Shown in pieces: positions 2,842 to 43,603 of a stretch of DNA of 64,000 nt. The notes under the pieces were generated by a model. That model saw only the letters and a list, made by a program, of their open reading frames with translations, was not told the DNA's origin and did not search any database. Position 1 is the stretch's first letter; the number at the start of each line of letters is the position of its first letter. The position numbers were made by a program, and so were the translations under genes. Source of the stretch: Candidatus Gastranaerophilales bacterium (GTDB taxonomy: Bacteria; Cyanobacteriota; Vampirovibrionia; Gastranaerophilales; Gastranaerophilaceae); assembly GCA_944325635.1 (NCBI GenBank), contig CALVBD010000001.1, forward strand, positions 310,001 to 374,000, read 5' to 3'.

Positions 2842-2862
2842 GCTATCGTTTCGAAAACAAAC
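2842..2862 (-). repeat. Half copy of the conserved-loop hairpin repeat
   Basis: Read on the minus strand, this matches the 5' arm end and loop start of the repeats at 35779 and 43508 (shared core TTTTCGAAACGATAGC). The rest of the loop and the 3' arm are missing, so it looks truncated. It lies about 100 bp upstream of the kinase-like gene. Confidence 0.6.
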
Positions 2863-2879
2863 CCAACTGATATTAAAGT

Positions 2880-4342: not shown

Positions 4343-4513
4343 AGTATTATTATAATACAAATAAAAATAAATAGTTCCATGGCAAACAACAAAACGTCAT
4401 TGCGGACTTATATGTGTAGTCGGGCATACCTGCCACAGCTGTTTCAAGTAGGTTGGGCATCCTTGCCAAACATAACATTAATGAAGCGCTTTGACTTGAT
4501 AAGGGATATAAAA

Positions 4514-35743: not shown

Positions 35744-35778
35744 CAATTATGGTGCGGTATACTATTCTTTAGTTAATA

Positions 35779-35858
35779 CAGACAGGGTGTGTTTGTTTTC
35801 GAAACGATAGCGGGAGCATGTGCGGGAGTGTGTTGAGAAAATAAATACACCCTGTCTG
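35779..35858 (+). repeat. Conserved-loop hairpin, copy 1
   Basis: Arms 35779-35800 and 35837-35858 pair over 22 bp with only two G-U positions. The 36-nt loop (35801-35836, starting GAAACGATAGCGGGAGC) matches copy 2 at 43530-43565 with one difference, but the outer 12 bp of the stem (CAGACAGGGTGT) are unrelated to copy 2. It follows the TPR gene and precedes proS; no T run follows, so it is not an ordinary terminator. See findings. Confidence 0.85.
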
Positions 35859-35969
35859 CCTCTTAAGCCTCACTTATACAAAGGAGAGTTTGTATTTAGA
35901 AATGTTTTAAATATATTTTGAGCATGGTACAATATAGCCATAAATAGAAGAAAAGAGGAATTAATAATT

Positions 35970-42212: not shown

Positions 42213-43511
42213 ATGACAATTACAGGTATTATATCCGCGATAGGAAATAACAGCAGCATTTACCCGCTTTTGGTCAGAGATTGCGGAATAGAAGTTCCGA
42301 CAAAAGTTTATTTAACATATAAAGAAAACGAAAACGATAAAAAAATCCAAAAACTTGCAACAAGAGAAAGATTTCTTGACGAATACATAGGCTCTGCAAT
42401 CTGGCTCGGTGGAATCCCGCTGGTTGAATATGTTGCAAATAAATTCATTAAGGCAAAAGGGTTTAACCCAAATATTAATCTAAAACTTTTAAAAGAAGAA
42501 GAATGCCAGGGACTTGAATACAATATTAAAAAATTTGAAAAATTGGCGCCTGAAGCTGTTGAAGATTTAAAGAAATTAACTGGCAGTATGGCGAAAAACA
42601 CTTATAAAACACTTCTTGGCGCAAGATTTCTTGCTGCAACGCTGATTCCTATTGCAGTAATTGGCTTTATTCTTCCTAAAATGATTTTTGCTTCCTCTGC
42701 CAGAAAAATTTCTGAAATGAGAAGAAAAAAAGAAAAGTCCCAAGAAGGATTGCAGCAGCTACCTTCTTGGGCGGGAAAAAAGGCTAAGGATACAACCTTT
42801 ACAGGCAACTTAATGTCAACTTTAGCAAACTTTTCCACCAAAGAAAAAATGGAAGTGATTGACGGCGGCTATGCTCTAGGACGCATTGTGACCGCAAGAA
42901 AAGGTCCTGACGGCAACCGTAATGAAGCAAAAGATATTGCATTTAAAATGGCAGGCATGATGTATTTGAATTACGTTGCGCCGCAACAGATTGAAAAAGG
43001 GTTGAACTTTTTCTGTAAAAAGGTCTTTAAACTTAACACAAACCTTGATCCTCTCATGCTTGAGGACAAAGATTTTATAAACCAGATAAAAGAAGGAAAA
43101 TTACAACTTCCAAACTCAGACAGTGCAAAGGATTTACTTGACTTTGTCGACAATAACCCGAAAAGCTTGTTTGTAAAATACGCAGAAAAGTTTGAAAAAA
43201 TTAAGCTTCTGAAAAACGGAATACGCGACCCGAGGGCGTATGTAAATATCAAAAAGCTTGCGGAATTCAAAAAAGACATAGAAGAATTTTCTAAAAATTC
43301 ACTCTCTTCTAAATCTGTAAAAACTTTTGCAAAACGCGCAAAAGGCGTCAAGACATTTAATATACTTGCAAATGTCGGGTTAAGCAGCTTTCTTCTTGCA
43401 TATTGCCTTCCGAAAGCCCAATTTGCATTTAGACGTCTTGTTACAGGCTCGGAACTCGAACCCGGAATTGTCAACGCAAACATGGAACCGCAAAAATTTA
43501 ATCGGAATTAA
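42213..43511 (+). CDS. Orphan membrane protein
   Basis: 432 residues, family not recognised. Hydrophobic segments lie at about 52-66, 130-155 and 385-402; the rest is Lys/Glu-rich and mostly helical. TTGGAG lies seven bases before the ATG. It is expressed behind a structured leader, and its stop codon falls inside the 5' arm of conserved-loop hairpin copy 2. Confidence 0.75.
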   Translation: MTITGIISAIGNNSSIYPLLVRDCGIEVPTKVYLTYKENENDKKIQKLATRERFLDEYIGSAIWLGGIPLVEYVANKFIKAKGFNPNINLKLLKEEECQGLEYNIKKFEKLAPEAVEDLKKLTGSMAKNTYKTLLGARFLAATLIPIAVIGFILPKMIFASSARKISEMRRKKEKSQEGLQQLPSWAGKKAKDTTFTGNLMSTLANFSTKEKMEVIDGGYALGRIVTARKGPDGNRNEAKDIAFKMAGMMYLNYVAPQQIEKGLNFFCKKVFKLNTNLDPLMLEDKDFINQIKEGKLQLPNSDSAKDLLDFVDNNPKSLFVKYAEKFEKIKLLKNGIRDPRAYVNIKKLAEFKKDIEEFSKNSLSSKSVKTFAKRAKGVKTFNILANVGLSSFLLAYCLPKAQFAFRRLVTGSELEPGIVNANMEPQKFNRN

Positions 43512-43587
43512 CCTGTTGATTTTGTTTTCGAAACGATAGCGGGAGCATGTGCGGGAGCGTGTTGAGAAAATAAAACCAACAGGTTAA
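43508..43587 (+). repeat. Conserved-loop hairpin, copy 2
   Basis: Arms 43508-43529 and 43566-43587 pair over 22 positions with one mismatch and one G-U. The 36-nt loop (43530-43565) is the same as in copy 1 apart from one T/C; the outer stem (TTAACCTGTTG) is different. The TAA of the upstream gene lies in the arm. Confidence 0.85.
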
Positions 43588-43603
43588 TAATCTTCTCTAA
43601 ATA

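Follow-up and report, generated by a model that had tools for sequence, protein, structure and literature searches.

A dispersed family of palindromic repeats with a conserved apical core and a variable stem in Gastranaerophilales

Two hairpins in a 64,000-nucleotide stretch of a Candidatus Gastranaerophilales bacterium genome (the whole analysed stretch is called the window) carry nearly the same loop on stems that appear to be gene-specific, which raises the question of what kind of element keeps its loop and its pairing but not its stem sequence. Both hairpins were present as originally described, and their 36-nt loops differed by one base. Copy 1, on the plus strand, consists of a left stem arm at 35779..35800 (CAGACAGGGTGTGTTTGTTTTC), a conserved 36-nt apical core at 35801..35836 (GAAACGATAGCGGGAGCATGTGCGGGAGTGTGTTGA) with tandem G-A/A-G pairs and two GC-GNNA-GC units, and a right stem arm at 35837..35858. 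Copy 2, on the same strand, has its left arm at 43507..43529 (ATTAACCTGTTGATTTTGTTTTC), its core at 43530..43565 and its right arm at 43566..43588; all four arms were assigned by folding. In copy 1, 22 of 22 stem pairs form, one of them G-U, and copy 2 has a single A-C mismatch between its arms. The RNA fold z-scores were -7.9 and -6.1, respectively, with all shuffles worse, and a 24-nt core occurred twice in the window against 0.00 expected. Matches to a covariance model spanned 35776-35861 (98 bits) and 43505-43590 (97 bits). A third copy, truncated to half an element, was found at 2842..2871 on the minus strand, and the orthologous site in genome G006 (L119) holds a full copy.

The two hairpins are members of a larger set, namely about 30-40 genomic copies of an approximately 80-nt repeat with a 36-nt core and a variable stem of about 22 bp. 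In the 2.0-Mb genome (13 contigs), BLAST returned about 30 matches to copy 1, and the covariance model, built from 23 copies of this genome, returned 41. Direct reading of the sequence, in sections, covered about 40% of this genome. The covariance-model search of relatives that had been proposed for the hairpins found further copies in the genus and in four other genera. Copy number was patchy: the 13 species of the genus had 72, 62, 41 (own genome), 41, 30, 6, 1, 1, 1, 0, 0, 0 and 0 copies. With the same model, the repeat was detected in 19 of 146 genomes and 5 of 41 genera of a family sample; in an order sample, it was present in 26 of 192 genomes and 5 of 45 genera. In Rfam, neither window copy reached the gathering score of any family, and permissive matches lay far under threshold. 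The exact core pattern was absent from the viral contigs searched, and a phage origin was rejected for this reason. As far as could be checked, the family, which is present tens of times in the genomes of some gut bacteria, is previously uncatalogued. Its copies are short, palindromic, dispersed, devoid of coding capacity and variably present among relatives, as in MITEs. At 13 loci compared for clean empty sites, no clear insertion junction that would reveal a target duplication was seen, and several of the compared intergenic spacers differed beyond the element itself. No transposase with ends matching the repeat was identified. In genome G005, short tandem arrays of the hairpin with a period of about 135-160 nt lie at contig ends (L125 15953-16320; L128 31-258; L138 9962-10133; L139 1-220), where they probably break the assembly.

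Among 112 distinct copies of the genus, the outer stem was variable yet paired, and the inner TTTGTTTTC/GAAAATAAA was nearly fixed. The core begins with tandem G-A/A-G mismatches, followed by AAC/GTT-type pairs and then by ATAGC-GNNA-GC ... GC-GNNA-GC. In other genera, AAC/GTT is replaced by GGAC/GTTCC or GAC/GTC and the first unit is GC-GGA-GC, and these replacements of pair types indicate that the core is structured. GC-GNA-GC is the motif of very stable DNA mini-hairpins. Drawn either as a nested internal loop or as two mini-hairpins, the core keeps 92-100% of its pairs; the nested form is favoured by two double changes from GC to AU, found in different species. attC sites keep their outer ends and vary in the loop, whereas this repeat has the reverse pattern of a kept core and a variable outer stem; identity with attC was rejected.

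The outer stems of the window copies had been thought to share no sequence. This was not borne out, as each agrees with the family stem consensus GGAACAGTTGTATTTG at about 10 of 16 positions. Agreement with the consensus is 61-63% over the 11 outermost stem positions in the window's genome, and the identity of the outer arms to it is 59-69% across four genomes. Pairing holds in 95% of cells of the genus copies, and two-sided changes number 423, versus 93 in shuffles. Outer-arm pairing in the four genomes was 92-94%, and it dropped to 57-66% once arms were dealt to other copies. The stems trace back to a single ancestral consensus (GGAACAGTTGTATTTGTTTTC); at each locus, the two arms have since diverged together.

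Two origins had been put forward in the original prediction: a 3'-end RNA element, and a mobile element that inserts into existing hairpin loops. The positions of the copies bear on both. Convergent spacers contain 29 of the 94 intergenic copies, codirectional spacers 45 (18 sharing the strand of the genes, 27 on the other strand) and divergent spacers 20, compared with 118, 332 and 185, respectively, among all spacers of at least 100 nt. Copies are hence somewhat enriched in convergent spacers, and they have no strand preference relative to genes. Downstream of the gene at copy 2 lies first the hairpin and then, as a separate structure, an ordinary terminator. Gene orientation is ignored, 20 of 94 copies are in divergent spacers and copy 2 lies upstream of an ordinary terminator, none of which agrees with a 3'-end RNA element; the orientation data and the distinct terminator led to the rejection of a terminator or 3'-UTR element. 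If the loop had instead entered pre-existing hairpins or terminators, the stems would be those of the host genes, as their gene-specific appearance in the window might suggest. In G002 and G008, the gene at the copy 2 site leads straight into its ordinary terminator, and the TPR-to-proS spacer that harbours copy 1 is short in G002, G010, G007 and G008; neither stem nor loop is present at these sites. Relatives that lack the loop at the two window loci also lack the stem, and therefore the stem arrived with the loop. Moreover, the ordinary terminator of copy 2 is a distinct downstream hairpin, and the stems have a family consensus in common. Insertion into hairpin loops is thus refuted at both window loci, and we regard it as extremely improbable for the family. 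What survives of the earlier proposal is that the pairing, rather than the stem sequence, is kept and that the element is dispersed; neither of the origins offered for it finds support at the window loci.

The pairing could still be kept by selection acting through compensatory substitutions, as in a functional RNA with a regulatory, 3'-stabilising or small-RNA role. We compared orthologous copies in G000, G005, G006, G009 and G004 at about 25 loci. In 275 outer stem pairs, there were 40 compensated double, 31 single and 6 other changes, counted mostly from one species pair per locus in alignments fitted to the model; because ortholog pairs have a common history, these counts do not represent independent events. 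Independence would give about 13 doubles, one third of them pairing. At the locus c25/c81 (G004/G009), each arm has gained an identical insertion of 2 nt, which inflates the count of doubles by up to 7. In 29 of the 40 double changes, the substitutions were not transitions on both sides, and therefore had no simple G-U intermediate. The per-site change between orthologs was highest in the outer stem (about 22%), against 7.8% in the flanks and 5.6% in the loop; the stems are therefore not slowed as purifying selection predicts.

The loops also changed in place. Sixteen of 42 ortholog pairs have the loop inverted relative to its flanks; with c55/c109 counted, the inversions affect 10 of about 25 loci, copy 2 among them, and at c50/c87 the inverted loop lies between flanks that are 97% identical. 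In the G006 ortholog of copy 2, the core and inner stem are inverted and two stem pairs are changed on both sides (A-T to C-G and G-C to A-T). The A-C mismatch of the stem is not inverted, and the boundary of the inversion therefore falls within the stem. Arm homogenisation and spacer inversion are thus both seen at orthologous loci, which is the signature described in the literature for polymerase template switching between the arms of inverted repeats. Template switching is reported to produce arm homogenisation and spacer inversion, with transversions favoured in bacteria (PMC8604942), and multi-base compensatory changes with loop inversion (PMC8794818).

These results weigh on the RNA reading from both sides. 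Its covariation is strong, the sense strand folds at -13.8 kcal/mol versus -3.8 kcal/mol for the reverse complement, and core changes from A-U to G-C and from GC to AU keep the pairing. On the sense strand of the element, outer-stem mismatches of the G-T type (about 59) exceed those of the A-C type (18), so that G-U is favoured over A-C, an excess that pure arm copying does not predict. However, gene-orientation preference is absent, with the 20 copies in divergent spacers noted above, and in-place inversion is so frequent that it would ruin a strand-specific RNA. Stem evolution outpaces that of the flanks, loops nearly match the flanks, Rfam gave no match and copy number ranges from 0 to 72 among species of one genus. 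The original statement that compensatory change means a kept structure is therefore not upheld in the sense of selection, since the double changes between orthologs are mostly transversional and accompanied by loop inversions in stems that change faster than their flanks, as template switching would lead one to expect. A functional RNA is, in our judgement, an unlikely explanation of the family. A minority of the copies may have an RNA role, and selection may act on an active element, in view of the G-T excess and of a core conserved between genera.

Core inversion at 10 of about 25 loci might also be expected if a site-specific recombinase flipped the core between the arms as a programmed switch. 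Yet the arms vary by locus, with no common site beyond the inner TTTTC/GAAAA; the inversion boundary at copy 2 lies inside the stem, as shown by the A-C mismatch; and every gene arrangement occurs, without the logic of a promoter switch. We consider such a switch very unlikely. Template switching is favoured over it because flips and arm copying are explained together.

The neighbours of the copies give clues to how the repeat may have spread. In G004, a REP (GTAGGTCGGATTTACTAATCCGAC) lies within 80 nt of 24 of 27 sampled copies, at 11-23 nt, and in G009 a REP lies within 80 nt of 15 of 27 copies; the corresponding numbers in G000, G005 and G006 are 1-3 of about 25 copies each. The sub-lineage of the window itself is thus almost devoid of REP adjacency, which speaks against a general role of REPs in the spread. 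REP matches on both sides were found at 7 of 27 copies in G004, 1 of 27 in G009, 1 of 25 in G005 and 0 in G000 and G006. Inverted REPs flank some G004 copies on both sides, for example in L209 and, with degenerate ends, in L206, L192 and L193. The REP that neighbours the hairpins of G004 also adjoins a RAYT fragment of that genome. RAYTs associated with other REPs occur in G000 and G006 (NF047646 matches at 4e-38 or better), and G008 has a RAYT-type gene and zero hairpins; in the draft assemblies of G005 and G009, no RAYT was found. In the family sample, RAYT was present in 12 of 19 hairpin-bearing genomes versus 45 of 127 others (p=0.025, with kinship ignored). The position of 24 of 27 G004 copies beside RAYT-type REPs suggests REP-assisted spread in the G004/G009 sub-lineage, with RAYT REPs carrying the hairpin as cargo.

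Alternatively, the repeat might represent the interior of REPINs (REP doublets mobilised by RAYT) whose REP ends have decayed in most lineages. The inverted REPs that flank some G004 copies and the presence of at least one REP at 24 of 27 are in line with this, as are REP-like neighbours in other genera (2 of 4 copies in G118 and 1 of 5 in G090). Nevertheless, most copies in G000, G005, G006, G061 and G156 have no adjacent REP traces although their stems are intact, and the spacing and orientation between hairpin and REP vary. REP palindromes are tagged at the foot by GTAG (or CGTC). The hairpin has no GTAG at its own foot, this tag being carried by the separate neighbouring REPs in G004 and G009, and it does not have the two conserved inverted end REPs around a less conserved spacer that define a REPIN. 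We judge a REPIN interior to be a possible but rather improbable origin. A REP-like palindrome (GTAGGTTGGGCATCCTTGCCAAAC) lies at 4448-4471 of the window and is the sole one found there. The RAYT genes at L061 1357-1893 and L062 192-722 have their own REPs, and in each case REP-like palindromes lie both inside and outside the coding sequence. In L028 (G000:C1:549465 region), a REP (GTAGGTTGGGCATACCTGCCCAAC) breaks up one hairpin copy, which points either to insertion of the REP into the hairpin or to replacement of the right half of the hairpin.

Taken together, the repeat is probably a non-autonomous dispersed palindromic element of MITE/REP-like type that belongs to one bacterial family, with RNA-like covariation that is mostly mutational and arises via template switching, and with spread by a single-stranded DNA route. 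A hairpin unit of an approximately 22-bp stem and a 36-nt core has dispersed into numerous intergenic sites and, within a single genus, into prepilin leader-coding regions. During replication, the nascent strand would leave its template arm for the opposite arm of the inverted repeat and later return. Such a switch would copy one arm onto the other, giving homogenised arms and apparently 'compensatory' changes, and a switch spanning the loop would leave it inverted. Movement may proceed by a single-stranded DNA route, presumably as cargo beside the REPs of a RAYT (REP-associated Y1 transposase) in at least the G004/G009 sub-lineage. The sense strand of the element was the C-rich strand in 67 of 98 copies (p=3.5e-4, with orthologs counted and thus non-independent), a bias that was clear in G000 and G005 and not in G009 (15 of 29). 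REP adjacency, the RAYT association and this bias are consistent with a route that is single-stranded and linked to replication. Most of the copies look non-functional. Some selection on the core of the active element is likely, because the loop changes slightly less than the flanks and the G-A pairs and GNNA units are kept across genera. A more speculative proposal, to which we give a low probability, is that the 36-nt core is a strand-specific ssDNA signal for a putative transposase or for RAYT acting in trans, with the loop rather than the ends as the recognition site; if true, the repeat would be a new class of ssDNA-mobile hairpin.

Several known systems resemble the repeat in part. In chloroplasts, minute hairpin-loop inversions flip the loop between close genomes while the stem stays, at single conserved loci; the flipping is the same here, but it affects a dispersed family rather than single plastid loci. 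Rickettsia palindromic elements are palindromic repeats that also occur in frame within coding sequence, whereas in-frame copies of the present repeat are confined to the prepilin leaders of one genus. Like the REP/REPIN and RAYT (TnpA_REP) system (Bertels & Rainey 2011, PMC3116915), the repeat consists of short non-autonomous extragenic palindromes in tens of copies, with ssDNA hairpins and compensatory arm changes, as reported for REPINs; some copies adjoin true GTAG-tagged REPs, and RAYT is present in several genomes. In REPINs the ends are conserved and the spacer is less so, whereas this repeat has a conserved apical core and a variable outer stem, lacks a GTAG tag of its own, inverts its loop in place and is without REP ends in most sub-lineages. 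It is a new dispersed palindromic repeat family whose architecture is reversed relative to REPINs. Arm homogenisation, multi-base compensated changes and spacer inversion are also known from template switching or quasipalindrome correction (PMC8604942, PMC8794818, PMC7202029). Unlike the loop inversions cited in that work, which are mostly short (about 4-8 nt), the present ones involve 36-nt loops in many dispersed copies of one family.

Covariation is the standard proof of functional RNA structure, and the strong covariation of this family is better explained by template switching. RNA-discovery pipelines can hence use the family as a natural control, and its loci densely document how arms are copied and loops flipped in bacteria. 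An uncultured lineage also gains a dispersed repeat family, in which REPs may carry a hairpin as a passenger.

In the genus g51, most copies are in frame with prepilin genes and occupy the part that encodes the leader, whichever way they are oriented. Related hairpins in the leader-coding region of many prepilin genes were seen in L258-L268 and L296 (G156), L285 (G093) and L289 (G120), for example VVEKTIPVYRIRVNKAFTLAEVLITLGIIGVVAAMTIP; they are in frame in both orientations and contain no stop codons. The similar flanks of the g51 copies suggest that they spread with the prepilin gene family, probably in part by gene duplication. Prepilin-like genes with runs of about 9-11 G/C near their starts were also observed (L160, L153 (G009), L261 and L289; spacers in L182, L184, L186 and L187), and the FTLAEVLITL signature beyond the run makes them candidate phase-variable pilin genes.
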